This document shows positions 28,997 through 57,500 of a stretch of 64,000 nt of DNA, in pieces (positions within the stretch are counted from its first letter, which is position 1; each line of letters begins with the position of its first letter). This DNA is from Daucus carota subsp. sativus (lineage: Eukaryota; Streptophyta; Magnoliopsida; Apiales; Apiaceae). The notes beneath the pieces were generated by a model. It searched no databases. It saw only the letters and a program-made list of their open reading frames with translations, and was not told where the DNA came from. The position numbers were made by a program, and so were the translations under genes. Where the stretch lies: contig NC_030385.2 of NCBI RefSeq assembly GCF_001625215.2, positions 365,135 to 429,134 of the forward strand, read 5' to 3'.

Positions 28997-29668
28997 TGAT
29001 AACGCCGATCTCCGATCCCGGTCCTTCCTCCGCCGTGACTGGTGGCTCCGTGGTGTAGCTGCTGGATGGGAGCCTACAAAACAACGCCGGCGGGGGGGTT
29101 TGGCCCCAAAGCGCCTCCGGCGTGAGAGTAAGCGTAGGTTTTGGAAGGGTAAAGATACGAGAAAGTGTTATCTATGTGTGGTGGGTGAAGGTGTATGTGT
29201 GGTGGTTGCTGGTGGCTGAGAGTGTTTGAGTATATGCTGAGTGTAAGTGTGTGTATGAATGAGTGTGTAGAGAGAGTTCAGTTAACCCCTAAACTCTTGA
29301 TCCTTGGTCTATTTATAGGCCAAGGATTAGGGTTTAAGGGTGAGTACCTGGATCCTGGTCCTACACGTGTAGGGGTTTGATCCCCAACACGTGTCCAGGT
29401 GTCAGCGTAGGAGTAGTATTTTGGAATGTTCCCTGGCTTGTCTCTATCGCCAGTAGTTGACCGTTGCATTTGTCTTTATTGTGTCAGTCCGTGCCTCGTG
29501 CAGCAAGTGTCGGCTGGTACAAGTTTGGACCCCGGTCGAGGGACATGTTTAGGAGGTACCCGGGTCCAATTCCTGTCCCGGGTGACGTAGGCCTGAGATG
29601 CCATACTCCCAGAGGATCATGGCTTTCAAGAGGGTCCGGGTGACGTAGACCCGGGTTATACCATATCA
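28997..29668 (-). repeat. 3' LTR of the Tat element (left copy)
   Basis: 672 bp, TG...CA, identical to 40847-41518. Being on the left of a minus-strand element it is the 3' LTR. It carries the minus-strand TATA box described separately. Confidence 0.96.
29309..29318 (-). promoter_or_regulatory. LTR TATA box (CTATAAATAG), 3' LTR copy
   Basis: On the minus strand CTATAAATAG lies inside a longer inverted repeat whose arms are CCTTGG and CCAAGG. The same box is at 41159-41168 in the 5' LTR, where it would drive transcription of gag-pol toward lower coordinates. Confidence 0.6.
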
Positions 29669-29688
29669 TTTGCCCCCCACTCCCTTAT
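29669..29688 (-). promoter_or_regulatory. Polypurine tract of the Tat element
   Basis: On the minus strand AAGGGAGTGGGGGGCAAA abuts the TG of the 3' LTR, the expected plus-strand primer for reverse transcription. Its position confirms that the element reads right to left. Confidence 0.85.
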
Positions 29689-29749
29689 ATAGATTCTCTA
29701 TGTGAGGGAGTAGAGTGGAGTTCTCGCTTTTGCTGTCTTTGGCCGGATG

Positions 29750-30070
29750 GACCCGGGCAAAGTTAGGTCACCGTGTTTGCCCTGTGCCTGGATGGCCCCG
29801 GGTGTAGGTGGGAGTCGGAGTTTGTCCCCCTACCCGAGCAGACTTGGGTAAGGGTAGAATTTTGTGGTTGCCCCCCTGCCCGGGTAGACCCGGGTAAGGG
29901 TAGAATTTTGTGGTTGCCCCCCTGCCCGGGTAGACCCGGGTAAGGGTAGAAGTATCGCTGAAGTTTTCCCCGTTTAGGTCCGGTCAGGGGACTGCCCTCT
30001 CCCTTGGATCCGGGTAGTGGTCGCAGCCTTTCGTCCGGGGTTGCTTGCCGGGTGGATCCGGGTGACTAAG
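29750..30070. repeat. GC-rich tandem repeats with CCCGGGT motifs
   Basis: A unit of about 57 bp (containing GGTAAGGGTAGAATTTTGTG and TTGCCCCCCTGCCCGGGTAG) is repeated two and a half times at 29836-29952, followed by further CCGGGT-rich sequence. It lies between the polypurine tract and the TATA box of the antisense gene, that is, in its upstream promoter region. Confidence 0.8.
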
Positions 30071-30260
30071 ATGGGGTCCGGGTCCGCCGGAGATAGATCG
30101 ACAATTTTCTCAAGGGAATTCCGGGGGGTTTTTGCGCACAGCTGTTTCTTTTATTTTGAAACTTGAACAGGCGCGCCTTTTGAGGAGGGGTAATAATGAA
30201 ACGGCTGTAATTATTGCCGTGCGACCAATGGAAAACAGCCACGTGGCCTAGCCGTGAGGC

Positions 30261-30268
30261 TATAAATA
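30261..30268 (+). promoter_or_regulatory. TATA box of the antisense gene
   Basis: TATAAATA in GGCTATAAATATAACC on the plus strand. A start of transcription about 30 bp downstream would give a leader exon ending at a donor (CCG/GTAAGT) at 30430/30431, and the next acceptor (TTTCATTTAG) at 31239 lies four bases before the start codon. This is a normal plant promoter plus leader-intron arrangement inside a retrotransposon and opposite to it. Confidence 0.65.
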
Positions 30269-31243
30269 TAACCCCCATTACTTCTTCATTTTTTTACTTT
30301 CAGTTTCTATTTGTTTTCTCTGTTGCTTCTTCGAAAACTACTTCGCCGTTTCTATTTGCCGGTCGCTGGGGTTCGTCAAGTTTCGAGCTTCGCCGTTTGC
30401 TTTGCTTTCCCGTTTCCGCTGCTAATTCCGGTAAGTCTATTTTCTTTTTTCTTTGCCCTTTTCCTTCCATTATGCCGCTGTTGTTTGTACGAATCTTTTT
30501 TAACATGCTTGCTTTTGATTGCCTTCTCCATAGTTGTTTTGCTGTTGCTTGTTTGTGTTTTGTGTTTGTATGTGTTTGTTGGGGTTTTGTGAGTTTGATT
30601 CGAAATGGGTAGGCGTTTGTGTTTAGTCTGGGGTTTTGTATTTCGGAAATCTGGGTTTTGGTTTTGAATGTTCTTGGATTTCTTGAGTGTAACTGTATGT
30701 ATATGTGTATAGTGAGTGTATAACGGCTGGGGGTTTGAGTTTTGATTCTTGATTTCGTTTTGAAATTTCTGTGAAAATGTTTGTGGCGTTTGGGATTCTT
30801 CGGTGATTTGAACTGGACCCGGGTTATATAGTTGTACCCGGGTTGGGTAGATTTAGGACATGGCTGTTTTAGATGTTTGTGAGTCGCGAGCGTATTTGCC
30901 CGGGTATGTACTTTAGGTCCGGGTAGGGGTTTTGGGCTGCTTTGTTTTCGTACTTAGGAGAATTTGTTGTCCTGTAACTTGTATGTATAGACCCCGGTTC
31001 CTTCTTAGTACATAGTACTCTTCTCCCCATGGAAACCTGGGGAAAGGAGGGGACCCGGGTAGGATCGGGTGAGCTGCTTTAGTTTTTTGTTAGCTTGGAT
31101 CCAGGTAGTGTTGTTTGTGCCTGATCGTTTCTCTTTTCTTGATGCTCTTCCACATAGAATTAGGATGGGATCCGGACCCAAATAAAATCTGTAACCATGT
31201 GTGAATTCTAAAACTGATCCGGGTTGCTTTTTCATTTAGGTTT

Positions 31244-33814
31244 ATGGTCCGGATCCCTAGGCCGCCAAGGAGAGAAATCGTTGCTTACTCAGCTGTACCC
31301 GGGGAATTCTCTAGTGACACCGAGTGCGACGAGGTTCAAACCCTTGCTTTCCGCGCCCGGGTAAAGATGGCTGAAAGAGAAGTTTCTTCCTCGGGAGTGG
31401 TGTCCGAGTTCCAAAAAGTGACAAAGACGATCGGGAAGCAGGTTATTATGTCCCCGGAAGGTATCTGGTGTGACTCTAAGTCTTACTTTGTCACCAAGGC
31501 TCCCCTGGTCGAGGAGAAGGGGTTTTACACCAATATGTCCGGATTCTACAGGCGTAAGCACCCAAACGGGATGTTGGGACCTTACAGTAAGGAGGAGTTT
31601 GATGAAAAGTTCCGGGAGCTGATTGGGATCCGGGCTCCGTTCCCGCTGAAGAGCCATATCAGGGAAATGTCTCCGGACGCGGCCGATCGAATGATCCGGG
31701 CCGCTTTCCAATTGCCTCCGGAAGTCGAGTGGAGGTGGCCTGTGCCCGGGGAAATGATTTACCACCGGCCTGCAGATGGTTTCGTCCCGGTGTGGATGGA
31801 ACATCTTCGATCCGGGTGGAATCCCCGATGGCATATTTTCTTCAAGCACCTGTGTAAGTATGAGTGGAAGGTGTCCCCGATGCAGTTGACGCCGAACGCG
31901 GTCAAGTGGATGACCTGGTTCCTATGGGCGTGCAACAAGATGAACTATTACCCCACTTTGAGGTTGTTTCGCATGTTGTTCCAGTTCAAGAAGTCCGGGG
32001 TAAAGCCCCTGTATGAGCTACGCTTTCGTTCGAAGGAGTGTGGTCTGGGCACTGGGTTTGTGAGCCCGGTTATGCACCAGAGTTCGCTGAAGGGATGGAA
32101 CGGAGAAGTCCTTATGCTGAAGGGTCTGGACTTGGCCTTCATGCCTTACATGGAGACGGACGACAAGAGGGTGAAGACGGATTCTGGAGCGCCCGGAGCA
32201 GCTGGAGAGTTCCGGACTCAGTTGGTTGAGTTCTGCACTTGTCTCGGGTTTCAGTTGACCCGGGATACGTTTATGCAACACAACCAATTGCACGAGGGTG
32301 GCTGTGAGTTGCATTTTTTCCTTAGCTTTTTGTTGCTACTTTTGTAATATCTCGTCCGGGTCCTCTTGTTTGTCAACTGCATATTAATGTCTTGTCCGGG
32401 TCCTTTTATCTGCAATCTGTATGTTGCCATCCTGTCCGGGTCTTTTTGCTTGGAGCATATTCCTTAGAATGATTTATTGTAGTATTTCTTTGTATTAACC
32501 CGAGTTCTCTTGATTCTTGACAGGTCTTCCCTACTTTGACCCGGATCTTTGGAGGGCCATGTCTGCGAACGATTCTTTTGCTGCTGCTCTGCGAAATTTG
32601 GGAGGAGTTCATACCCTGCCAAAGCCACAGCCGAAGGATAAGTCGGCAAAGAAGAAAAGGGGCGCCAAGAGGGGGGAATCCGGGTCTTCCCGCCAGGAGA
32701 CAGATGGGACCGGGCATTCAAGTGCTACTCCGGACCCGGAGGTCCCAGTTGAAGATCAGGAGCTGGGAGTTGATGCTGTGGAGGTGGAGAGCCCGGTCCA
32801 CGAGCCGAAGAAAAAGAAGAAGAAGACCGATTCTTCCCAGAAACAAGTGATTGATATGACGGGGGAGGATCCGGGAAAGTCTGCGATGGAAGTGGTGGAT
32901 CTGGGGATCGAACTCGAGGGTGGTTCCCGCCAAGCGCCCAGGTTTGGAAAATATCCGGTCAAGAAAGTGATTGGATTAATGTCTGAGCTCCCCTCTGACC
33001 AGGATTGGGAGATGATGGAAGATCAGGGTTTGGTCGAGAATTTTAAGGAGATCGGGGACCTGTGGGGTCAGGTAATTCTCCTACCCGGGTTCAATTTTCT
33101 TTTGTACTTTGCTTCGTTTTCCTTGTTTTTTATAATTCTGGTTTTTCTGACCCGGGTCTGATGTTTCTCTGTTAGCTCGGTGGTCGCTTGGCCGGGTTCA
33201 ACACCCATGCTTTGGCTAACTTGAAGAAGGAGAGAGATTTCTCTATCGCTAATCATGCCAAAGCAGTGAAGTTGGAGAAGGATCTTGATGTAGAGAGGTC
33301 AGCCCGGGAAGCGTTGGAATCGAGTTTGGCTACCAGAGTCAAGGAGGCTGAAGTTCGTAAGGAAGCTGAGCTCGGGCAGAGAGTCAAAGATGCTGAGGCC
33401 CGGGCTGAGGGCGCGGAGAAGAAGGTTACCGGGTTGGAGCAGGAGGTGGCTGGCTTGAAGCAGGAGTTGGAGACCCGGAAAGCGCCTGCGGAGGTCATCG
33501 CCGACTTTCAAAAGTCGAAGGTTTATGAGGATGCCCTGGCCAAGGCCGCAGCTGCTGAAGTCATGCGCTGCTGGACTGTGGCTGAGAAGCATATCAAAAC
33601 TGACCTGGGTGCTAATGCTCAAAGCTTCATTGACTTATACATTGCTGTGAAGAACAGAATCAATGCAGGTGGGGCGGAGCCCGAGCCTTATGCTGTCCCG
33701 GGTCAGGATGTGGACTCGGATTCTTCGACTGAATCCGAACCGGTGGATGAAGAGATTCCTGTTCAAGATCCTCTTGCCGATGATCATCTCGTCCAAGACT
33801 CTCCTCCTGCTTAG
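31244..33814 (+). CDS. Antisense accessory gene of the Tat element (putative gypsy-type transposon protein)
   Basis: Three coding exons on the strand opposite gag-pol, 31244-32303, 32524-33071 and 33176-33814, splice in frame to 748 residues. The N-terminal half has a tryptophan-rich domain (WRWPVPGEMIYH, WNPRWHIFFKHLCKYEW, QLTPNAVKWMTWFLWACNK) like the family named putative gypsy-type transposon protein (PF04195-like, from memory). The middle is charged with a lysine-rich patch (EPKKKKKKTDSSQK) that could be a nuclear signal. The C-terminal half is a long coiled coil (ERSAREALESSLATRVKEAE to VAGLKQELETRK) with an acidic tail. Upstream are a TATA box and a leader intron. Antisense frames in this position are known in Retand/Grande-type elements; their role is unknown. 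The open, well-spliced frame implies selection. The first exon could also be read through at its donor, giving a shorter protein. Confidence 0.8.
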
Positions 33815-34014
33815 ATTGATTTTTGCCTTTGCTTTTGAAAGACAATGTTTTTGTAATATCAAGTATATTTGTGTATCAGGATTGATTATTTGACCGGGTC
33901 TGTGTGTACCCGGGTACTATGGATGCTTACTTCGCTGCTTTTGATCAACTATTTGTTTGTCAACAATAGACTTGTGAATGCTTCGTTGCTTGCTTTATAT
34001 ACTTATCGTCCGGA

Positions 34015-34545
34015 TCGGTTGCTTAAATAGTTTTGTAGTTAGAAATTTTTTCGAAGCAAATGAAATAGGTGGACCCGGGTAACATCTACCCGGGTTGGTT
34101 GCTTACATAGTTTTGTACTTAGAAAATTTTTCCAAGTAAACGAAGTGGATGGACCCGGGCAATTCTTACCCGGGTTGATTGCTTTATTTGTGTTTGCATT
34201 TAGAAATTTTTTCTAAGTAAATAAAATGGATGGACCCGGGCAGTTCTTACCCGGGTTGATTGCTTTATTTGTGTTTGCACTTAGAAATTTTTTCTAAGTA
34301 AATAATATGGACCCGGGTTGATTGCTTTAACATGTTTGCACTTAGAAATTTTTTCTAAGTAAATAATAGTGGATGGACTCGGGTAACTTCTACCCGGGTT
34401 GTATGCTTTCATTTGCTTTTTATACTTAGAAATTTTTCCAAGTTGAATGATTGCATGGATGGACCCGGGTAGATCCTTCCCGGGTTGGTTGTTGATATTG
34501 CTTGGTTGCCTTAGAAATTTTCTAAGTAAATAATAACATAGATTC
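34015..34545. repeat. About 80-bp tandem repeats with two palindromes per unit
   Basis: Six to seven units, each starting near TTGCTTTATTTG, each holding a palindrome of the type CTTAGAAATTTTTTCTAAG and a pair of ACCCGGG(T/C) sites. One unit (34260-34321) is shortened. The array lies exactly between the 3' ends of the antisense gene (33814) and gag-pol (34667), so both transcripts end in or face it. It may act as terminator or hairpin-rich 3' UTR for both. Confidence 0.85.
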
Positions 34546-34666
34546 ATCGGCAGCAAAAGACTTCATTGATATTAAAACTATTACACAGCTTTAGAACGAT
34601 CAAAATACATGATTGCTTTTAGGGATATGTAGCTGTCTTCTAGGATCCTTGTCCTTCTTCCTCATT

Positions 34667-37600
34667 CTATTGGTAGAATTTTCTTAATCTGAGTCCGTGC
34701 CAGGTGTTAGATACTTCTGACCCGTCCATATGCTCCAGTTTGTAGGTGCCCGGCCTTAGGACTTCTTTGACTTTGTAGGGGCCTTCCCACTTAGGCATCA
34801 GCTTGCCAGTGTTGGTTGGATCAGAGGCTTCGGTGTCTCGTAGAACCAGGTCTCCTGCTTGAAAATTTCTAACCCGGGATTTTTTGCTGAAGTGATCCCG
34901 GGTCTTCTCTTTGTATTTTTCCATTCTTGCAATTGCCTGATCTCGGACCTCATCTACCAAGTCTAAGTTGACTCGGAGTCCTTCTTCATTCGCAATTTCA
35001 TCAAAGTTGATTGCTCTGTGGGAGGGTGACCCGACTTCAATTGGGAGCATTGCCTCCGTTCCATAGGCCAACTTGAAGGGGGTTTCTCCGGTGCTTGTCC
35101 GGGGACTGGTTCGATATGACCAGAGAACATGTGGCAATTCTTCTGGCCATTTGCTTTTGCTTTCTTCCAACCTCTTCTCAATTCCTCTCAAGAGGATCCG
35201 GTTAGTAACTTCTACCTGGCCATTCCCTTGAGGGTAGGCGACTGAAGACTTCTTGTGTTTGATGCCTCTTTCAGCCAGGTAGCTTTCGAAATCTGACCCT
35301 ATGAACTGGGGTCCATTGTCTGATACCAGGACTCTTGGTAGCCCGAATCTCATTAGGATGTTATCCATGAACCGGATGACATCTTGTTGATTGATTGTTC
35401 TCATTGCCTTGGCCTCGACCCACTTGGTCATATAATCAATGGAGACAAGCAGGTATCTGAGGTCTCCTTTAGCCCGGGGAAAAGGTCCCATGATGTCTAT
35501 CCCCCATACAGCAAACGGGATTGGGGATAAAACTGAAGAAGGTAGGACAGGGCTTACCCGGGGCACATTGCTGAACAGTTGACAGTTCTTGCATCTTTTC
35601 ACAAATTCCATTGCATCCTGGTGGATAGTCGGCCAGTAGTACCCCTGTCTGATGATTTTGTATGCCAAGCTTTTGGCTGACATGTGGTCTCCACATATTC
35701 CTTCGTGGACTTCTCTTAAACAATACTCGGACTCTTCTGGACCGATACATTTCAGGATCGGGGCTGAGTAAGTTCGTCGGAATAGGATCCCGCCTTCAAC
35801 AAAAAACTTGGCTGCCTTAGCCTTCAGCCGTTGCGCTTTCCCCTTGTCTTCGGGTAACTCTCCCTTCTCTATGTAGTTGATCAGGGGAGTCATCCAGGTA
35901 GGGTCGTTGCTGATCTCGAAAACTTCCTCATGTTCTATTGTTGGCTTGTGCAATTCTTCGAAATAGACTGAGCTATCTAGGTCCGCTGAATTTTGGACTA
36001 GCCTGGAGAGGTTGTCTGCTTCAGCATTCTCTTCCCTGTTGACTTGCAAGATCCTGCATCCGGGGATCAGAGTAAGGTAGCTTTTCACCAAGGCTTGATA
36101 CTTGGTCAGGATCGGGTCTTTGGCAAGGTATTCTCCATTGGTCTGCCTGACCACGATCTGGGAATCACTGTAGATGGTGAGATTTCGGATAGACAGGGTC
36201 CGGACTAACTTTAACCCTGCTAGAAGGGCTTCGTATTCCGCTTGGTTGTTGGTTGCTGCGAAACCGAAGGAGATTGCTGTTTTGATGGTGAACCCATCCG
36301 GGCTCTTCAGGATTAGCCCGGCTCCTGACCTTTCGGTTGTTGAGGAGCCGTCGACATGTAGTATCCAGGTCTCCGGGTTGAGTTTTCCCGGGGCTTCCGG
36401 GTCAGTTTCCATGGAGGTTGTCTGGTTCTCTGGAAAGTTGCATTCCACTACGAAGTCTGCTAGGACCTGGGCTTTGACTGCTGTTCGGGGTAGGAATGTT
36501 AGGCTGAACTGGCTAAGTTCGATTGCCCAATTCACTAGTCTCCCGGAGATGTCAGGCTTGTGAATGATTTTCCTTAGAGGTTGGTCTGTGACGATCCTGA
36601 TCTCTCTTCCCTGAAAGTAGTGTCTGAGTTTCCTGGAGGCGGTGATCAGCGCGAAAGCAAATTTTTCTAAGTTGGGGTATCTGGTCTCTGCATCTTTGAG
36701 GACCTGGCTGACATAGTAGACAGGCTTCTGCTGCCCGGCTTCTTCCCTGATCAGGGCTGCCCCAACGGCCAAAGGTCCGGCTGACAGGTATAGATAGAGA
36801 GGTTCTCCGGGTAGGGCTTTTGTCAGGATCGGGGGTTTGGACAAGTATGCTTTTATTTCGTCAAGAGCTCTTTGGCAATCCGGGCTCCATTCTACCAACT
36901 TCTGGTTTTTCGCCCCTTTTAACAACTCAAAGAACGGTAGACATCTTTCAGCGAGTTTGGAGACAAACCTTCGGAGTGCTGCTAAGGACCCTGCTAGCTT
37001 TTGGACTTCTCTCTGAGTCCAAGGTGGTTGCATCTCTTGTACAGCTTTGATCTTCTCCGGATTAGCCTCGATACCCCGGTTGCTTACCATGAAACCCAAA
37101 AATTTTCCAGCCTCTACCCCGAATGTGCACTTGTCTGGATTGAGCTTTAGCTTAGTTCTTCTCATGTTCTCAAAACATTCTCGGAGGTCTGAAATGTGAC
37201 CCGGGACTGATGTAGATTTGGAGATGATGTCGTCGACGTAGCATTCCAAATTTCTTCCGAGTTGGTCTTTGAAAATTTCATTCATTGCCTTCTGGTATGT
37301 AGACCCGGCGTTCCTTAACCCGAAAGGCATCAGTTTGTAGGCATATACTGCTCTGTGGGTTATGAAGGCTGTTTTGGCTATGTCTGCTGGGTTCATCTTA
37401 ACCTGGTTGTACCCGGAGAAGGCATCCATGAAGCTTAACATCAGGTGTCCTGATGTGGCATCAATAAGCTGGTCTATGCTTGGTAAAGGATAAGGGTCCT
37501 TCGGGCATGCCGCATTCAGATCTGTGTAGTCAACACACATCCTCCACTTTCCGTTTGCTTTCTTTACCATGACTACGTTAGCTAGCCACTCCGGGTATTT

Positions 37601-40459
37601 GATCTCGCAGATGATATCCGCCTTCATCAATTTGCCAACTTCCTCATCTATTGCTTTCTGCCTCTCTGGTGCGAAATTTCTTCGTTTTTGTTTAACAGGC
37701 TTCTTTTTGGGATCGACGTCGAGGCTGTGCATTGCCAATGATTCATCCAACCCGGGCATGTCGTCCGGGCTCCAGGCAAAGACATCTGCATAGCTCCGGA
37801 GTAGTTGGATGAGTTCCTCTTTAAAGACAGTATCCAAGCCTTTTCCAATTTTGATTTTTCTTGTCGGGTTGTCTTTTTCGATCAGGACCGACTCGGTCTC
37901 TACCGCGGCTTCGACCTTGGTTAGTTCTTGTGCCGAGATCATTTGCTGGATCCGGGCGTCCGTGTTCTTTTCCACAAAATCTTGAGCGGAGCTCATGGTT
38001 GCTTTTTGGTTGCTTTGTTTGGGCTCAGGGTTGGTTGCTCCCGAGTTATGACTACCCGGGTCAAGCTCGATGACCTGGACTTCACCCTTAGGGTTTGTTC
38101 TCGGGTAAGGTCGATGCTTCTTGTTGCTTTTTTGCTTTTGGAAGACTGTTGCCTTTCTTTTGTTGTCCAGGTGTGTTTCTGCCATGACCAAAGCTTGGCT
38201 GTAGCATACCCCGGCTGTTTCCGAATCTCCTTTGACTTCGCCTACCCCGAACGGAGTTGGGAATTTGAATTTCAGGTGTGTGACAGAAGTGATGGCTTCG
38301 ATTTTGTTTAGACCCGGGCGGCCAATAATCACATTGTAAGAGGAAGGAGTGTCTGTAACATAGAATTTGATCATATGGACGACCTGGGTTGGTGCTGTTC
38401 CAAAACGAACCGGGAGGTAAAGGGTGCCTAGGACCGGGACAATGCTGTTCCCGAATCCGTATAAGGGGTCCTCCCTGTAGTCGTTCATCCGGATGTTCCC
38501 TAGTTGCATTCGGTCCATGGTATGCTTGAACAAGATGTTTGCTGAAGAGCCGTTGTCAACTAGGATCCGTCTGACCTCATTCTCGGCTATATCCAAGGTT
38601 ACCACCAGGGCTTGATTGTGACCCCGGGTGACACCCTCGAAATCCTTGCTGCTGAAGGAGATGACTTGTTCGGGGAAGGCTTGGATGGACATGATTTCTT
38701 GACAGGAGTCCGGGCTGGGAGGAGGGGAACAGGATCCGCCCAGTACTACGTTGACAATGTTCTTTTGTTTCCCCGAACCATCTCCCTTGTTTGCTGTATT
38801 CCGGGCTATATATTGCCCCATGTTTCCTTTGCTGATCTGTTCTTCAATGAAGTACTTGAGGGATATGCAATTTTCAGTTTTATGACCATGGGTACCATGG
38901 TAATCACAGTGCCTGTTGGTAGGTCTGCTTTCAGGAGGAGTTTGCATGGGTTTTGGTGGGTAGTAGAAGGGTTTGTCTCTGATTTCTTTGAGTATATCCT
39001 CTCGGGGTCTGTTTAGAGGGGTCCATTCGGGCTCTGGTTTTGGTTCCCTGGTTGCTCTGTTTGGACCGGGGTCACTCCTGGACCCGGATCCCTGTTGGCT
39101 GGTTCTCTTAGAACCTGATTGCTGGATGAAGTTTGTTTGTCTGTCTGGTTTAAATTTCTTATCCTGGTGATATTCTTTCCTGGGTCTATCTTCGATTTGT
39201 TTTCCTTTTGAACTGCCCTGCCGGGTCATCCTCATTGCTTGGAGCACATCGGTTTCCTTGATGAATTTTGCGGCCATGGCATAGGCAGCTGCCAGGCTCT
39301 GGGGCTCCTTGTTGATCAACTCGACCACATATCTCTCATTTTGTTCTGGGTCCAAGTTCCTTCGGAATATGCTCAGAGCCTCACGCTCGTCCAGGTTGGA
39401 GATTTTATTGATTGCTTCCTGGAAACGTTTCATGTAATCTGAGAGTGCCTCATTGTCATACTGGCGAACCGTTTCCAGGTGACACATATGGAGTTCATGT
39501 GTCCTGTTTGCTCGGAACCTTCTGAGGAAGGCTTCCCTGAAGTCTTTCCAGGACCCGATGCTCCGGGATGGGATCCGGCTGAACCATCTTTGGGCCCCTC
39601 CCTTGAATGTGGATGCGAAGAAGCGGCATTTGGTCAGGTCATTGTAGTAGTAGATCAGGGCTATCTGTTCAAAATAGTGTAGATGTTCTTCCGGGTCTCC
39701 CAGTCCATTGAAAGATTCAAAGTTGTAGTGCTTCATACCCTTTTGTCGGGGTATGGATTCCAAGGAGTGGCTGAAGGGAGTCAGGGTTCCCCCAATTTCA
39801 AGCCCGGAATCATTTCCGATTTTCCGGTTGAGCTCATTGATCATGTCTCTGAGGTTGGTTTGCCCCGGTCTCTCATCCTCGTCATCAGAGATGAGTTCGG
39901 GTGTTGCTTCCTTCCGGTATCGCTTGGACCGGGATCCCTTTATCAATTTCTCTTCTTCGAGTTGCATCCGGATGGCAATTTTTTGTTCAAGTTTTTCCTC
40001 TTCCTCTTTTCGGATCTGTTCTTTTCTTTCAGCTAAGATTCTTAGCCGGGTTTCCTCACTATCTTTCTGTTTCTTTTTCTTGGCTTTGTCTCCGATCCGG
40101 TCGAAGACGGAACCCCGGGATTGACGGCTGTTCCCGGAGTCCTCGGATTCACCGATGTCCTCAAGTCTACGGTTGCTTTCCCGGCGATCATGGTACTGCC
40201 GGATGGCTTCGGCCAACTCTACATTGGTGAGTTGGGATAGGTGGAGGGTGGTGACCGGGACATCGGTGTACTTGTACTGGTTTGCTTCGATCGTGACCCG
40301 GGCATCATTGGGGTTGATGGTTTGGTTCTCCTCCGGGTTCACATGGGTGAAAAGGGGTCCTGAGGCATGATCCTGGTTCGGGTTATCCTGGTCTGTCTGA
40401 GGGTTATCCGGGTTCTGGGGAAGACCCAGGTGGGAGCGTGTCCTTTTTGTCATGGTCAC
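34667..40459 (-). CDS. Gag-Pol polyprotein of the Tat element
   Basis: One uninterrupted frame of 1,930 codons. Rough order: coiled, charged N-terminus; Gag domain near 250-380 (GGAQRWFSRI, FREAFLRRF); a CHC-type knuckle near 520 (CDYHGTHGHKTENC); aspartic protease near 634 (VDNGSSANILF); reverse transcriptase to about 1100 with YVDD near 1076; first RNase H near 1180-1320 (TDQPLRKIIHKPD); a second, archaeal-type RNase H from about 1368 (HVDGSSTTERSGAGLIL, NNQAEYEALL, YSDSQIVV); integrase with an HHCC finger near 1585 and DDE motifs (DIMGPFP near 1653, SDNGPQF near 1711). The dual RNase H is the Tat hallmark. No frameshift between gag and pol is needed. All catalytic motifs look intact. Confidence 0.96.
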   Translation of the reverse strand: MTMTKRTRSHLGLPQNPDNPQTDQDNPNQDHASGPLFTHVNPEENQTINPNDARVTIEANQYKYTDVPVTTLHLSQLTNVELAEAIRQYHDRRESNRRLEDIGESEDSGNSRQSRGSVFDRIGDKAKKKKQKDSEETRLRILAERKEQIRKEEEEKLEQKIAIRMQLEEEKLIKGSRSKRYRKEATPELISDDEDERPGQTNLRDMINELNRKIGNDSGLEIGGTLTPFSHSLESIPRQKGMKHYNFESFNGLGDPEEHLHYFEQIALIYYYNDLTKCRFFASTFKGGAQRWFSRIPSRSIGSWKDFREAFLRRFRANRTHELHMCHLETVRQYDNEALSDYMKRFQEAINKISNLDEREALSIFRRNLDPEQNERYVVELINKEPQSLAAAYAMAAKFIKETDVLQAMRMTRQGSSKGKQIEDRPRKEYHQDKKFKPDRQTNFIQQSGSKRTSQQGSGSRSDPGPNRATREPKPEPEWTPLNRPREDILKEIRDKPFYYPPKPMQTPPESRPTNRHCDYHGTHGHKTENCISLKYFIEEQISKGNMGQYIARNTANKGDGSGKQKNIVNVVLGGSCSPPPSPDSCQEIMSIQAFPEQVISFSSKDFEGVTRGHNQALVVTLDIAENEVRRILVDNGSSANILFKHTMDRMQLGNIRMNDYREDPLYGFGNSIVPVLGTLYLPVRFGTAPTQVVHMIKFYVTDTPSSYNVIIGRPGLNKIEAITSVTHLKFKFPTPFGVGEVKGDSETAGVCYSQALVMAETHLDNKRKATVFQKQKSNKKHRPYPRTNPKGEVQVIELDPGSHNSGATNPEPKQSNQKATMSSAQDFVEKNTDARIQQMISAQELTKVEAAVETESVLIEKDNPTRKIKIGKGLDTVFKEELIQLLRSYADVFAWSPDDMPGLDESLAMHSLDVDPKKKPVKQKRRNFAPERQKAIDEEVGKLMKADIICEIKYPEWLANVVMVKKANGKWRMCVDYTDLNAACPKDPYPLPSIDQLIDATSGHLMLSFMDAFSGYNQVKMNPADIAKTAFITHRAVYAYKLMPFGLRNAGSTYQKAMNEIFKDQLGRNLECYVDDIISKSTSVPGHISDLRECFENMRRTKLKLNPDKCTFGVEAGKFLGFMVSNRGIEANPEKIKAVQEMQPPWTQREVQKLAGSLAALRRFVSKLAERCLPFFELLKGAKNQKLVEWSPDCQRALDEIKAYLSKPPILTKALPGEPLYLYLSAGPLAVGAALIREEAGQQKPVYYVSQVLKDAETRYPNLEKFAFALITASRKLRHYFQGREIRIVTDQPLRKIIHKPDISGRLVNWAIELSQFSLTFLPRTAVKAQVLADFVVECNFPENQTTSMETDPEAPGKLNPETWILHVDGSSTTERSGAGLILKSPDGFTIKTAISFGFAATNNQAEYEALLAGLKLVRTLSIRNLTIYSDSQIVVRQTNGEYLAKDPILTKYQALVKSYLTLIPGCRILQVNREENAEADNLSRLVQNSADLDSSVYFEELHKPTIEHEEVFEISNDPTWMTPLINYIEKGELPEDKGKAQRLKAKAAKFFVEGGILFRRTYSAPILKCIGPEESEYCLREVHEGICGDHMSAKSLAYKIIRQGYYWPTIHQDAMEFVKRCKNCQLFSNVPRVSPVLPSSVLSPIPFAVWGIDIMGPFPRAKGDLRYLLVSIDYMTKWVEAKAMRTINQQDVIRFMDNILMRFGLPRVLVSDNGPQFIGSDFESYLAERGIKHKKSSVAYPQGNGQVEVTNRILLRGIEKRLEESKSKWPEELPHVLWSYRTSPRTSTGETPFKLAYGTEAMLPIEVGSPSHRAINFDEIANEEGLRVNLDLVDEVRDQAIARMEKYKEKTRDHFSKKSRVRNFQAGDLVLRDTEASDPTNTGKLMPKWEGPYKVKEVLRPGTYKLEHMDGSEVSNTWHGLRLRKFYQ

Positions 40460-40846
40460 AAGAACTTACACAGGGTGTATGGTTGCTGTTTTGGTGGTCG
40501 TGCCCACAAATGGTATAGATAGTGACAGGATGACAAAAATAGTGTGCACAAGTAGTCAACTTACTATTTTCAGAGATACCACAAATAGTTAAGTGACAAA
40601 ATGTGTGCAGGTGTGTGACAAAAGATTTTATGTGCTACAGACAAGATTAGGGTTTTGCTCAGACAGGGTTTGCTAACATGCTCATATCAAGAAAAACCAT
40701 GGCTGAGGGTTCTGAGAAGCTGGGTGTTTGGTGAGAGCTTACTGGTGTTATTTGGACCCCCGTTTCGGGGGTTTGTTGAAGAAGATGAGTCCAGTGGCAC
40801 CGTGACCACAGGACAGAGGACACCTTCCCCTCCTTCTAGCGCCAAA
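40460..40846 (-). other. Leader and primer-binding site of the Tat element
   Basis: Between the 5' LTR and gag. Directly next to the LTR the minus strand reads TTTGGCGCTAGAAGGAGGGG, beginning with TGG (complement of a tRNA CCA end) and so the probable primer-binding site (about 40827-40844). I do not assign the tRNA. The remaining leader has ACAAAT/ATAGT-type short repeats and no frame. Confidence 0.75.
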
Positions 40847-41518
40847 TGATAACGCCGATCTCCGATCCCGGTCCTTCCTCCGCCGTGACTGGTGGCTCCG
40901 TGGTGTAGCTGCTGGATGGGAGCCTACAAAACAACGCCGGCGGGGGGGTTTGGCCCCAAAGCGCCTCCGGCGTGAGAGTAAGCGTAGGTTTTGGAAGGGT
41001 AAAGATACGAGAAAGTGTTATCTATGTGTGGTGGGTGAAGGTGTATGTGTGGTGGTTGCTGGTGGCTGAGAGTGTTTGAGTATATGCTGAGTGTAAGTGT
41101 GTGTATGAATGAGTGTGTAGAGAGAGTTCAGTTAACCCCTAAACTCTTGATCCTTGGTCTATTTATAGGCCAAGGATTAGGGTTTAAGGGTGAGTACCTG
41201 GATCCTGGTCCTACACGTGTAGGGGTTTGATCCCCAACACGTGTCCAGGTGTCAGCGTAGGAGTAGTATTTTGGAATGTTCCCTGGCTTGTCTCTATCGC
41301 CAGTAGTTGACCGTTGCATTTGTCTTTATTGTGTCAGTCCGTGCCTCGTGCAGCAAGTGTCGGCTGGTACAAGTTTGGACCCCGGTCGAGGGACATGTTT
41401 AGGAGGTACCCGGGTCCAATTCCTGTCCCGGGTGACGTAGGCCTGAGATGCCATACTCCCAGAGGATCATGGCTTTCAAGAGGGTCCGGGTGACGTAGAC
41501 CCGGGTTATACCATATCA
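40847..41518 (-). repeat. 5' LTR of the Tat element (right copy)
   Basis: 672 bp, identical to the left copy. Contains the TATA box at 41159-41168 (CTATAAATAG on the minus strand). It is followed by the CACGC duplication. Confidence 0.96.
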
Positions 41519-42195
41519 CACGCATATATTAGTTGTTTAACTCATCAATCAAGCGTATAACATACCATAATCTATTATTATCAGCATTCCCTCATGCTGC
41601 GACTTTTTCAAGCATTTGACGTCGTTCATCCCATTTCAACCCCCAAACTTTCCTCAATGACTGACCGGCCGGCATTCTCGAAAACATGAGTCCAGGTACA
41701 AATGTCAAATATTAGTTACGCAGATAAAAGGTTGATCAGAAACTAAAATTAAAAACATACGAGAACCAGAAGGCAAACACTTACTCGCGCATATGACAAA
41801 CATTGAAGCATGATATTACTAATAAATACATGGTTTCAGACACGGCCATATTAGCCGGAACCATTTGGCCATAAAACTTACGATTCTTCCTCATTTCTCT
41901 ATCTATCTATCCTCGCTTCTCCTTGTCCTCTATAAGAACTCTGTAATGTTTCCCGAATTTCTTCCCCCGATTAATATTAATTATTTTGTTGACACCTTGA
42001 AAAAGATAGTCATTTCACCACCTCCCTCTCCCTCTCTCGTTCGTAACAGTCGTATCATTTTCGCCACCTTGAGATCACTATCACCGCCTCCTTAAATTGG
42101 TACATTGTTATAGAAAGGAGAAGAAGAAGAGAGATCAATTTTTTCAACTATCTCTTTTTTCTTTCTATTCTATTATTGCCAAACTTAATTGGACA
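41519..42195. other. Promoter-side region of the DRM/ARP gene
   Basis: Right flank of the Tat element and leader of the next gene. On the minus strand 41690-41600 is open and protein-like (FSRMPAGQSLRKVWGLKW, then DERRQMLEKVAA and a stop), a possible C-terminal exon of an unrecognised leftward gene cut off by the retrotransposon. The rest is AT-rich with a CT-rich leader at 42020-42180. Confidence 0.35.
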
Positions 42196-43034
42196 ATGGG
42201 CTTCCTTCACAAGCTATGGGACGAAACTCTTGCTGGACCAGCACCTGACGCTGGCCTCAGCAAACTCCGTAACAGCTCGCATTCCCGTGGACTGTCTGCC
42301 AGTCATGTTCTTGACGATGACGTTCCCGTGACTCGCAGCATCACAATTCTCCGTTCTAACTCCGATATTCGCCATGTGAACCTTTCTCCTGACTCAGGCT
42401 CCGTGCCATCTTCTCCCACCACTCCAGCCACTCCCGGTTCTCCATTTTCACGTAATTGCTATACTATCTGCGCTCTTTACTAAATTGTGCTTCCTGGATT
42501 GCAAATATGTGATCTATAAGAGGGCGTTTAGTGCCTCATTTTAAACGATGGATTTCAAATGACAAGATTTGAGTTGTCATTTCAAATTCTCAGGTTGAAT
42601 GTATGAATTTCAAGTGAAATACAAATCCTAATTCTCAAATAGGTTATTTGATCAAATCCACAATTTCAAATGAAATCAAGATTTTCAAATGGGTCATAAA
42701 ATATTTTGAGAAAAATATGAGGCATTTATAGAAAATATGTGCATCAGATTGCCTTATACATAAAGCTCTGACATACTTTTGTGGGGATTATTGACATCAA
42801 TTTCAGCTACCTCGCCTCGAGGGGAAATAAAGAAATTGACAAGGAGGAAATCGACACCGGAAACATTACAACGATCTCGGCCTAGGAGCCCAACTGGTTA
42901 CGACTGGTACATGCCTCACATCTCTTTCCTAATTGAATATGTCAATGTCATTGTGAATCCTGTTCAGATCATTTTCTAATGTATACCACATTTCGTCATA
43001 ACGCAGGATTGTTCTTAGTGCTCTGGATCGTTAA
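42196..43034 (+). CDS. Dormancy/auxin-associated (DRM1/ARP1-type) small protein
   Basis: Three exons (42196-42451, 42807-42906, 43007-43034) splice in frame to 127 residues; the last exon is only 28 bases (ending YDWIVLSALDR, with the Trp codon split by the intron). The N-terminus MGFLHKLWDETLAGPAPDAG and the Ser/Pro/Thr stretch SSPTTPATPGSPFS are the signature of the auxin-repressed/dormancy-associated family (PF05564). Members are small, disordered and induced by dormancy, stress or sugar starvation; the biochemical role is unknown. The start follows a CT-rich leader. The Tat insertion lies 673 bp upstream and could affect expression. Intron 1 (355 bp) has a weak MITE-like look. Confidence 0.88.
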
Positions 43035-44520: not shown

Positions 44521-46026
44521 TCAATATACTTATATAAAGGAGAAGCGAGGGGCGTGTAGGTGGCGCCTCTCACATCGCTCTGTTCTATTTTTCTAATTTT
44601 TGGGAATTTTCGGAATTTTTGGGAATTTTCGGATGAAAAATATCAAAAATTAGAATTACCTTTTTTAGTTTCGGATATATTAGAAGCAAGTTTCAGAATC
44701 TGATTTTATTTAAGATCATTTAAGGAATATAGTAGCTTGAAAGTTTTAATCTGATTTTGTTTCTATATAAAGGAGAAGCGATAGAACTACTTTTTTTAGT
44801 TTCGGATATATTAGAAGTAAGTTGTAGAATCTGATTTTGTTTCAGATAATTTATGAAATATAGTAGCTTGAAAGTTTTAATCTGATTTCGTTTCTATGTA
44901 AAGGAGAAGCGAGGGGTGTGTAGGTGGCGCCTCTCACATCGCTCCGTTCTATTTTCTAATTTTATGGAATTTTCAGATGAAAAATTAGAACTACCTTTTT
45001 TAGTTTCGGATATATTAGAAGCAAGTTTCAGTATCTGATTTTGTTTCAAATTATTTATGGAATATAGCAGCTTGAAAGTTTTAATCTGATTTTATTTCAG
45101 ATTATTTAATTATGGGAAATAGTAGCACACAAGTCTCTTTGCACCTATAAATACCCCTATAAGTTGTAGGGTTTTGAATCATCTAAACACAACCTATTCT
45201 CTCTCAATACCACAACCCTACCTCTCCCCGGTGATAGTTCTCTTGCTTGATTTCTAACTCGGTGGTGCCGTTCTTCTGCTGCAACGATAAGTGAAGGCTG
45301 TTTATATGGTATTAAAAAAAATAAAGGTAGTTATAAACCGCTACGTGGGAGTCGACAAATCCAAACACGGGAGAAGAATATAGTCTTGACATGATATTGA
45401 TTGATGATATCAATAAATTAACTATTAGTGATGTATATTTGTTGGTTATTCTTTTATAATATTTGTTTTGTTCATCGGACATGTTTGTTGTTGTTAATTT
45501 TTATATGATTTGCTTTGTATACATGAAAATATTATTAATGCGTTATCTGTTTACTCTGTTCAAGCAACTTTTAAGTGAAAGTTGTTTATACAGTATTAAA
45601 AAATAAAGGTTGTTACACGCAAGAGTAGTTATAAACTGCTATCTCACGGATTTAAGTTAGATGTTTTTGTGCACAATCAATCCATAAAAATTGAAGGAAG
45701 GTGACAATGTAAGAACATGATTCCTTTTAAAAAAAACACAAATAAAATTAAGATTCGTCGTGCTTTAAATTGTTATTTACGTGTAGAAATTTATTTTTAG
45801 TTTTTCACCATCAATTATAATCCAAATTTTGCAATATTATATATTAGTATTGGTATTACATCAAGATTTTTATAATATAAAATTTATTTTATCCTACAAA
45901 TATTAATTTTTAATCATTAATATACTTTTTATATACAGCCACAATATTATTGTATTCTACAAATATTAATATTGAATCATTGGTATAATTTTTATAGGCC
46001 GCCGCAACGCGCGGCTTCTCAACTAG
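44521..46026 (+). mobile_element. Non-autonomous Helitron, about 1.5 kb
   Basis: The right end has a GC-rich hairpin (GCCGC, CGCAAC, GCGGC) ten bases before CTAG and a host T, the Helitron 3' terminus rule. The left end begins TC after a host A and continues TATATAAAGGAGAAGCGAG, a common plant Helitron start. The 5'-end sequence (TAAAGGAGAAGCGA) recurs at 44766 and 44899, with the following block (AGTTTCGGATATATTAGAAG) repeated three times, so the 5' part is itself tandemly multiplied. No Rep/helicase is present. A TATA-like CTATAAATACC and leader-like DNA at 45146-45240 could be a captured promoter. Confidence 0.75.
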
Positions 46027-54575: not shown

Positions 54576-57500
54576 ATGGAGAAAGAAAATAGCTCACCAA
54601 TTCAAACGATTTTGAATGGCTCGAATTATATAACTTGGTCTCAAGCTATGCGCAGTTTTCTCAAAGGAAAAAGACTTTGGCGGTATGTGAACGGGGATTT
54701 TACTATTCCGACAAAAGAAAAAGATGAAGTTGACTCAAAATTCAAAGATCGTATTGAGGAATGGGATGTCAAAAATCACCAAGCTATCACATTTTTTAGA
54801 AACTCTTCAGTTTCTAAAATTAATTTACAGTTTGGAAATTATGACACCGCAAAAGAAATTTGGGACTTACTGGCATCAAGATACACTACATCTGATCTTT
54901 CTCACCAGTATCAGATCATGAGTTCACTAAGTAAGCAAAAACAAGAGCCTGGTCAACCAGTTGCAGATTTTCTCTCTCAGATACAATCACTTTGGGATCA
55001 ACTAACATTATCTGAACCAAAGTGGTTACATACAGAAGATGCTACACTTTATCACACATATCGTGACCAGCAACGACTCATCCAGTTTCTTATGGCTCTC
55101 ACTCAGGATTTCGAACCAGTTAGAGCTGCTCTTCTTCATCGAGTTCCACTCCCCTCATTAGAAAGTTCTGTTGCTGAACTTATCTCTGAGGAAACTCGAC
55201 TTGGCCTTGGAAAATTCAAATCTGTGGTTGATAATGTACTTGTTGTACCTTTGGTATCCACTTCTGACAAACCATTTTGCAGGTTTTGTCGTCAAAGTGG
55301 ACATGTCACAAAGGATTGCATAACATTGCGTAATCATACATGTCAACATTGTCATCAAAAAGGTCATTACTCAATACAGTTCTGCAAGAAAAAGCCATCA
55401 TTCCATTCAAACAAGTTTACTCAGTCTTCTGCTGCTGCAACCTCTGAATCTCCAACCACATCTACTAGTGAGCTGGAATCTTTGCTCAAACAGGTTTTAC
55501 TTAAAGCCAACTCTCCCTCCACTGCATTTTCTGCCACTTCAGGTACTTCTTGGTATTTTGATTCAGCATGTTGTAATCATATGACAAATGATTCATCCAT
55601 ATTTACCATGAAAACACAAAGTACATCCCTTCCAAATATTCAAACTGCCGATGGTTCTACCATGAAAGTGACACATGTTGGAACTGTATCTACAGAAGAT
55701 CTTAATCTTCCTGACACATACTTCGTTCCTAATCTATCACTAAATCTTATTTCCATCGGTCAATTATGTGATCTTGGTTTTGATATAATCTTTACCTCTT
55801 CTGGTTGTCATGTACAGGATCCTCAGACAGGACAGACCTTTGGGACAGGGCGTAGATGCGGAAGGTTGTTTGAGCTCACTTCCCTTCATCTTCCTACATC
55901 AAAATCATCATCCAATCATCTAGTTGGTTCTTTTTCCACTACAACCAACATCTGGCATTCCCGGTTAGGTCATCCATCACAATCTCGTTTACATAGTCTT
56001 ATTTCTAGTGGTCATCTTGGTAGTGTTAATCTAGACACAATTGATTGTGTTTCATGTAAACTGGCAAAACATCATGTACTTCCATTTCCTATTCATTATG
56101 AAAAATCATCAGCTACCTTTGATCTAATACATTCTGATATTTGGGGTCCCTCTCCAACTCCAACTATGGGAGGGTCAAGATACTATGTGATATTTGTTGA
56201 TGATTTTTCTCGATACACTTGGATATATATTTTGAAAAATCGTTCAGAATTAGGAGAAACTTATAAAAATTTTGCCACTATGATTAACACTCAGTTCAAA
56301 AAGAAAATCAAGCTTTTTCGTGCCGATAATGCCAAAGAATACAAAGAATCTGATCTTAACAAATTTTTGGCATCTTATGGCACTCTTGCACAAAGCTCTT
56401 GTCCTTACACATCACAACAAAATGGTCGTGCTGAACGTAAACATAGGCACATTCTTGATACAGTTCGAGCTCTTCTCATTTCCTCTTCTTGTCCAGAACT
56501 ATTTTGGGGGGAAGCTGCATTAACAGCTGTTTACACAATCAATATGATTCCTTCTCCTGTTACAAATAACTTGTCTCCTTATGAAATATTATATGAAGAA
56601 CCTCCATCATATGATTCTCTTAAGGTTTTTGGTTCCACATGTTTTGTTCTTCTTCCTCCACATGAAAGAACAAAACTAGAGCCACGTGCTCGTCTTTGTT
56701 GCTTTATTGGTTATGGTAGTGGTCAGAAGGGATATCGTTGTTGGGATCCTATCTCCCAACGTCTACGAGTTTCTCGTAATGTGACATTTTGGGAACACAA
56801 AATGTTTTCATCTATGTCAGAATTTAAAATTGACACTACTACTAGCATTTCCCACTTTACAGATCCTTTTATTGATCTACATCCCACTGATGAAAATATA
56901 GAATGTCCATCGTCTTCTACTAACATATTTTCAGCAGATTCTCCACTTGAGCTCACTCAGCCATCTCCAACTACCAATGTTCCTGCAACTGAAGTTCAGT
57001 CTGAGGATTCCAATGTTGAGCCTATCACTCTACCAGATGAGTCTATTCATCGCTCTACTCGGGTAAGAAAACCTCCGGTTCGACTTACTGATTATCATGT
57101 TTATTCTGCTATACAAGCGTTACATGAGCCTCAAACATATAGAGAGGCGAGTGTTAACCCTCTTTGGCAGAAAGCAATGGCAGAAGAGCTTCAGGCATTA
57201 GACCGAACACATACTTGGGATCTTGTTACTTTACCTCCTGGTAAAACAGCAGTGGGTTGTCGATGGATCTACAAAATTAAAACAAAATCTGATGGTTCCA
57301 TTGAAAGATATAAAGCTCGTCTAGTTGCTAGAGGCTTTACTCAAGAGTATGGCATTGATTACGAGGAAACTTTCGCACCAGTTGCTCGTCTCACATCTGT
57401 TCGAAGTCTACTAGCTGTCGGAGCATCAAAACACTGGGATATGTGGCAAATGGATGTCAAGAATGCCTTTCTCAATGGAGACCTTCACGAGGAAGTTTAT

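Follow-up and report, generated by a model that had tools for sequence, protein, structure and literature searches.

Within a 64,000-nucleotide stretch of the carrot genome (Daucus carota subsp. sativus, contig NC_030385.2, positions 365,135 to 429,134; "the window"), we analysed a long terminal repeat (LTR) retrotransposon at 28997-41518, a spliced gene that lies on its antisense strand and is predicted to encode a 748-residue protein, and a palindrome, AYCCGGRT, that recurs along the element. A sequence-only reading of the window had proposed the gene as a functional accessory unit with its own TATA box, leader and three coding exons. Two things had escaped that reading: a published gene class, the TRP28 antisense open reading frames (ORFs) of Retand elements, and the conserved palindrome, which suggests a concrete role for the protein.

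The antisense gene and its element

The element is oriented on the minus strand of the window. Its 3' LTR (28997-29668) and 5' LTR (40847-41518), both on that strand, show 100% identity with no base difference over 672 bp, as in a young element. A 5-bp target site duplication, CACGC, flanks both LTRs externally; on the element strand the LTRs start with TGATATGG and end with GTTATCA, and a purine-rich tract precedes the 3' LTR. Gag-pol occupies a single open frame of 1930 amino acids (34667-40459, minus strand) with matches to Retrotrans_gag, RVT_1, RNase H models, Integrase_H2C2 and rve. The 4,998 bp from the end of pol to the 3' LTR (29669-34666) house the antisense gene on the plus strand, and this length falls within the range of 2,933-6,566 bp given for Retand elements in excerpts of Vicient 2025 (PMC11963269). 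With its antisense TRP28 ORF and long POL-3'LTR region, the element is, by its sequence features, a young Retand-type member of Ty3/gypsy. The gene had been described as running inside the retrotransposon and opposite gag-pol; it does run on the antisense strand, but it occupies the interval that separates the 3' LTR (29668) from the end of pol (34667) and does not overlap gag-pol.

The gene model, all on the plus strand, begins with a TATA box, TATAAATA (30261-30268), and a CT-rich non-coding leader exon (30290-30430) whose start is set from the TATA box; the stretch 30261-30430 is 70% C+T and has no ATG. The leader donor, CCG/GTAAGT, ranked second among 266 GT sites, splice-site ranks here being those of a matrix score. 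The leader intron (30431-31239; 809 nt) contains 16 ATGs and ends in TTTAG/GTTTATGG. Because the leader is free of ATGs and this intron ends at 31239, the first ATG of the spliced message would be the one at 31244, which opens coding exon 1 (31244-32303). Intron 2 (32304-32523; 220 nt), coding exon 2 (32524-33071), intron 3 (33072-33175; 104 nt, with two ACCCGGGT sites) and coding exon 3 (33176-33814, stop included) follow, and the three coding exons join in frame to 748 amino acids and then a stop, as had been proposed. GC content is 54% in the exons and 38-41% in the introns. The argument that the introns cannot be removed from the genomic RNA, to which they are antisense, follows from base pairing, and the gene would thus stay intact through transposition.

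ORF length by itself was not decisive, since 500 dinucleotide shuffles (mean 165 codons) reached a maximum of 367 codons, which is also the longest open stretch observed. A coding score built on gag-pol codon usage was best for the true frames, yet only about zero there, and was not relied on. Two sites were weak by the matrix, donor 2 (GCT/GTGAGT, rank 91 of 266) and acceptor 3 (rank 20 of 233), and were settled by conservation across genomic copies of the gene. For the TATA box, TATA[AT]A[AT] occurred at -1250 to -750 in 27 of 41 main-family copies, against 3.7 expected; however, a control stretch at -600 to -100 also held it in 20 of the 41, so that its conservation is not specific and these sequences support the box only moderately.

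Exon 1 encodes the TRP28 domain (PF04195, Transposase_28) at residues 186-248, with an E-value of 2.7e-6 and 28 bits against a curated cut-off of 26.2, and all 21 aligned sequences matched this model at E 0.01 or better. Exon 2 encodes lysine patches that by eye resemble nuclear localisation signals, and exon 3 encodes a coiled-coil-like region and an acidic tail, with weak, sub-threshold Pfam matches to tropomyosin and leucine-zipper models. A search of NCBIfam gave nothing useful, and searches of genome contigs and viral contigs returned no relatives, as expected for a plant element.

Copies of the gene in the carrot genome

A search of the genome (441 Mb, 11 contigs) with the exon-1 protein found at least 117 matching places at 34-100% identity, a lower bound since 116 of 419 first-look candidates were scored; 20 of the 117, counted from the listing, carry an internal stop. 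We chose 44 places by hand, spanning identities down to about 51% and leaning to uninterrupted frames, which with the window gave 45 copies; for L014, L019 and L025, the fetched piece contained no exon 3 and only part of exon 2. Intron 2, at 123-283 nt, kept a GTRAG donor and an AG acceptor in all 45 copies. Of the 42 copies whose exon 2 is complete, all have the GT donor of intron 3 and 39 have its AG acceptor, the other three matches beginning within the exon; the intron measured 76-121 nt where both of its ends were seen. The leader acceptor, YAG/GTnn(n)ATGG, was found in 41 of the 45. Judged by this conservation, the pattern is that of real introns. Some copies (L023, L025, L027, L028, L036, L037, L039 and L042) have N-termini that differ in length and sequence while sharing the leader acceptor and an MVRI start.

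Selection on the frame was measured as the ratio of nonsynonymous to synonymous divergence (dN/dS) by the Nei-Gojobori method over pairs with dS of 0.1-1, the pairs not being independent of one another. In exon 1, where 107 pairs from 44 copies were compared, median dN/dS was 0.064; it was 0.106 in exon 2, with 132 pairs from 40 copies, and 0.154 in exon 3, with 126 pairs from 37 copies. Copies with stops or with split, short or missing matches were dropped, namely L043 for exon 1; L014, L019, L025, L032 and L034 for exon 2; and L014, L019, L025, L028, L041, L043, L049 and L050 for exon 3. Omission of broken copies lowers dN/dS somewhat, yet it is not a plausible source of values this low, as in exon 1 of L010, where dN is 0.007 and dS is 0.344. 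Relaxed selection among copies, which the sequence-only reading had named beforehand as the outcome that would refute it, is not what these medians of 0.06-0.15 indicate. Through these values, the kept splice sites and the presence of PF04195 in 21 of 21 sequences, sequence comparison lends strong support to an accessory gene that is spliced and functional.

Several copies are mosaics. Relative to the window, L010 has 98% identity in exon 1 and 64% in exon 3, L027 has 83% in exon 1 and 98% in exon 2, and the element of L052 pairs a reverse transcriptase (RT) of 98% identity with an antisense exon 1 of 51%. From these sequences, modules seem to be exchanged between subfamilies.

The palindrome, its versions and the flanking DNA

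CCCGGG and ACCCGGGT sites are dispersed along the whole element (28997-41518). Counting one LTR, the 11.85 kb of the element contain 45 CCCGGG sites against 4.2 expected, with a maximum of 11 in 200 shuffles, and 18 ACCCGGGT sites against 0.18 expected. The element is GC-richer than its flanks, which over 51.5 kb have one CCCGGG and zero ACCCGGGT; CCCGGG does not occur in the 22.5-kb right flank, which includes a copia-type frame of 1360 amino acids. The noncoding parts of the element hold 17 ACCCGGGT sites against 0.08 expected, and without both tandem arrays they still hold 8 against 0.04, together with 12 CCCGGG against 0.89. Under a null that permutes synonymous codons, CCCGGG is also in excess in gag-pol (12 versus 2.55) and in the antisense coding sequence (7 versus 1.48), and in neither case did any of 500 shuffles reach the observed number. 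Outside the arrays the neighbours of many sites are unrelated, and the gag-pol sites fall in all three frames.

Both arrays carry CCCGGG sites. One, with an 81-bp unit (34032-34533), adjoins pol, has 3.5 units at 34032-34311 and holds several sites paired 15 bp apart; the other, with a 46-bp unit (29822-29951), lies 5' of the TATA box. Within the 81-bp unit, CCCGGG sites also enclose an inverted repeat around AGAAATTTTTTCT.

The CCGG core was followed through 299 aligned pairs of leader introns, from which L009 and L049-L052 were excluded; pairs were also passed over, uncounted, when they aligned over fewer than 300 bases or fell outside 55-97% identity. At 60-70% identity, CCGG was kept in 839 of 1066 ungapped cases (79%), whereas other NCGN tetramers were kept in 88 of 1179 (7.5%), CpG-free G/C tetramers in 244 of 1144 (21%) and the remaining tetramers in 17258 of 65226 (26%). 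Since an aligner can be attracted by repeated motifs, codon alignments were also checked, with T-type copies (described below) excluded and with pairs that are again not independent. In the lowest identity band of exon 1, C or G third bases at fourfold sites were kept in 72% of cases inside CCGG and in 42% outside, and retention was higher inside than outside in all nine exon-by-identity bands of ordered pairs. Since both the leader introns and the silent positions of codons retain the word, selection appears, on these alignments, to act on the palindrome as a DNA word.

The palindrome occurs in two main versions, C-type (ACCCGGGT) and T-type (ATCCGGAT), which we scored together with the antisense gene in each 5.6-kb piece. 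All 41 copies with at least 70% identity in exon 1 have an excess of ACCCGGGT (4-26 per 5.6 kb), although in two of them, L028 and L043, a mixed form, ACCCGGAT, dominates. The four most diverged copies examined, L049-L052 (exon 1 at 51-55% identity, exon 2 at 22-35%), have zero ACCCGGGT and instead 4-12 ATCCGGAT per 5.6 kb against 0.04-0.15 expected. Gag-pol was compared for the elements of L049, L051 and L052, that of L050 being left out. The element of L052 matches the window at 97.8% in RT and 94% in integrase (IN); that of L051 at 91% in gag, 82% in the next stretch, 87% in RT and 84% in IN; and that of L049 at 89% in IN, the rest of the piece having no match. For comparison, the C-type L044, whose exon 1 is 72% identical, reaches 97.7% in RT and 96.7% in IN. 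Since the gag-pol of T-type elements is close to that of the window, the motif version in the antisense region does not track pol. Together, these sequence data indicate that AYCCGGRT appears in subfamily-specific versions (ACCCGGGT and ATCCGGAT), is dispersed over the element and is maintained by selection.

In the flanking DNA, the 5' LTR ends about 0.6 kb from an open frame that matches a dormancy/auxin-associated protein (PF05564) and stands head to head with it (41519-42480); given this distance and orientation, the young insertion may occupy the promoter of that gene. A 131-nt direct repeat occurs three times outside the element (44651-45116), two of the repeats having 91% and 83% identity to the reference copy, and the copia-type gag-pol frame of the right flank is open over 54576-58655.

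Possible roles and comparison with known systems

The reading that we favour, tentatively and at somewhat less than even confidence, is that AYCCGGRT is the recognition site of the antisense protein and that the protein marks the DNA of the element that encodes it, a VANC-like self-recognition in an LTR retrotransposon. The antisense transcription unit, comprising a promoter, an untranslated leader exon, a leader intron and three coding exons, would yield a 748-residue product with a TRP28 domain, basic patches and a coiled coil, which may enter the nucleus and bind the palindromes. A dimer is proposed because the target is palindromic and the protein has a coiled coil. Once bound, the product might tag copies of its own element for expression, either by counteracting silencing or by activating transcription, so that the outcome could be anti-silencing, activation or targeting. 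We hold still more tentatively to a wider claim, that Retand-type elements encode a spliced antisense DNA-binding protein whose own palindromic target is dispersed over the element and kept at silent positions, that protein and target diversify together and are exchanged as a unit independent of pol, and that this arrangement is convergent with the VANC system of VANDAL elements. VANDALs are Mu-like DNA transposons.

A number of observations weigh against recognition of the palindrome by the antisense protein. The T-type sample consists of four copies only, and recombination alone could keep motif and gene together without function because both lie on the same 5.6-kb piece. Within pol, the ratio of TCCGGA to CCCGGG was 10:5, 5:5 and 1:3 in the pieces L054, L056 and L053, all beside T-type genes (only about 1.7 kb of L053 matches pol), and 4:10 and 3:5 in the window and L055, beside C-type genes; the window and L054 differed with a Fisher P of 0.066, or 0.20 for half-sites, so that the motif version inside pol follows the type of the antisense gene only weakly in these sequences. 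A strict match fails for L028, whose exon 1 is close to that of L025 while their motif mixes differ (CC4/CT15 versus CC14/CT6). Mixed sites are also skewed by strand: on the antisense-gene strand, the noncoding parts of the 45 copies have 170 ATCCGGGT against 37 ACCCGGAT, and the gene body has 94 against 50, a skew that exceeds that expected from a mean AT skew of 0.28 and is explained by it only in part. Core residues of TRP28 are nearly invariant across C-type and T-type copies, and binding specificity would therefore need to lie elsewhere in the protein. Searches of the PDB by sequence and with a 21-sequence profile gave no credible relative, the best matches being 14-3-3 proteins at E of 0.32 or above, and a single-sequence AlphaFold model of exon 1, with a mean confidence (pLDDT) of 39, did not settle a fold.

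Some of these points speak for a second explanation, which we regard as unlikely but the strongest of the alternatives: the gene would be real, yet its product would act elsewhere, in nuclear import of the pre-integration complex, in integration targeting or together with Gag, and a host DNA-binding factor, exploited by the element, would read the palindrome as an anti-silencing, enhancer or insulator site. Conservation of the motif and its scarcity in the flanks do not point to any one reader, and the invariant TRP28 core, the mismatch between L028 and L025 and the weak agreement within pol are all consistent with a host reader. However, a host factor would have no obvious reason to favour motif versions according to the antisense region rather than pol among co-resident elements.

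The motif could also act in the genomic RNA or through Gag or integrase, in packaging, in dimerisation by the self-complementary ACCCGGGU or in the integration complex. Sites do occur along the genomic RNA, gag-pol included, and the strand skew of the mixed noncoding sites would suit such a role; but the T-type L052 closely resembles the C-type window element in RT and IN, half-sites in gag-pol are nearly equal on both strands (12 and 10), and packaging would not usually involve dozens of dispersed palindromes. We therefore consider a role in RNA or through these proteins improbable. Mutation or gene conversion, for instance slow loss of CCGG from an element that is young and GC-richer than its flanks, is a still less probable source of the motif, since a ten-fold excess remains over dinucleotide-preserving shuffles that hold CpG content, other NCGN words are lost where CCGG is kept, and silent positions within CCGG are held. 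Least credible is an antisense unit that makes only noncoding RNA, as double-stranded or small interfering RNA with an incidental frame, a possibility raised for antisense units in excerpts of a review (PMC7264820): with dN/dS of 0.06-0.15 and with splice sites and phase kept over 45 copies, selection on the frame rules it out as the sole function.

Among the closest known systems are the TRP28 antisense ORFs of Retand. According to excerpts of Vicient 2025 (PMC11963269), antisense ORFs with TRP28 (PF04195) occur in 97% of recently active Retand clusters, DNA binding is predicted for TRP28, the function of these ORFs is stated to be unknown, and tandem repeats are reported, as are Smc-like matches for some of the antisense ORFs. 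The element in the window shares with them the position of its antisense ORF, after pol and before the 3' LTR, as well as PF04195, a long POL-3'LTR region, tandem repeats and the identical LTRs of recent elements; the Smc-like matches of some of their antisense ORFs are a further point of likeness. By sequence, the antisense gene belongs to this known class, in a spliced form. Unlike in the excerpts of that survey, the ORFs here are exons of one spliced gene, selection has been measured and a family-wide palindrome is present; the survey found its ORFs with ORF Finder, and the word "intron" is absent from its full text (PMC11963269). The titles and abstract openings that we surveyed mention neither a spliced TRP28 gene nor such a motif, although introns could appear in Gomez-Orte 2013, Steinbauerova or PMC9016345, and ACCCGGGT is absent from the texts of the papers searched for it. 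The multi-exon model goes beyond the literature surveyed, as does its implication that a TRP28 ORF and a coiled-coil ORF listed as separate may be parts of a single spliced gene.

Gene23 of maize Grande (Gomez-Orte 2013, as reviewed) is likewise an accessory gene on the antisense strand of the 3' internal region; excerpts of the review state that it is driven by a promoter of its own and that its protein is nuclear, and they also call for searches for spliced antisense transcripts (PMC7264820). The likeness is one of description, and for these two traits the TATA box and basic patches here are only suggestive.

The likeness to VANC concerns the motif as well as the gene. VANC is a transposable element (TE)-encoded anti-silencing protein of VANDAL whose short motif is located in introns and intergenic DNA, frequently within tandem repeats, and differs as C-type and T-type versions between subfamilies, while the transposase is more conserved and the effect is loss of methylation, as described in excerpts of PMC5735166. 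When we looked for the corresponding trait, the short motif proved to be enriched in the noncoding DNA and tandem repeats of the element. Also shared are a TE-encoded gene with introns and family specificity of the motif (PMC5735166, in the same excerpts). The likeness may extend to C- and T-type variants that differ between subfamilies along with an accessory protein which varies more than the enzyme of transposition; this holds for the antisense region, in four T-type copies, with L028 as an exception and with weak agreement in pol. In contrast, VANC proteins carry DUF1985/DUF287, whereas the antisense protein here carries PF04195: Pfam found neither DUF in it, exon 1 matching PF04195 only and exons 2-3 matching other models below threshold. 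The motif here is, moreover, palindromic and also maintained within coding regions. The antisense protein is therefore VANC-like in these respects and is not a VANC by sequence. Excerpts of a 2026 study of sunflower methylomes report local drops in CG methylation in Retand among other lineages and discuss VANC as a precedent (PMC12844716), which is compatible with the binding model and is not a test of it.

What is new here is the conservation of splice sites, the dN/dS values and a selected palindrome with a second version beside diverged antisense genes, the palindrome being the unexpected part. With TRP28 antisense genes present in nearly all recently active Retand elements of the survey, as its excerpts state (PMC11963269), a spliced gene model and a candidate target sequence make TRP28 function open to a direct binding test. 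If the reading holds, sequence-specific self-recognition would have arisen not only among VANDAL DNA transposons but also among LTR retrotransposons, which would bear on how large plant genomes fill with such elements.

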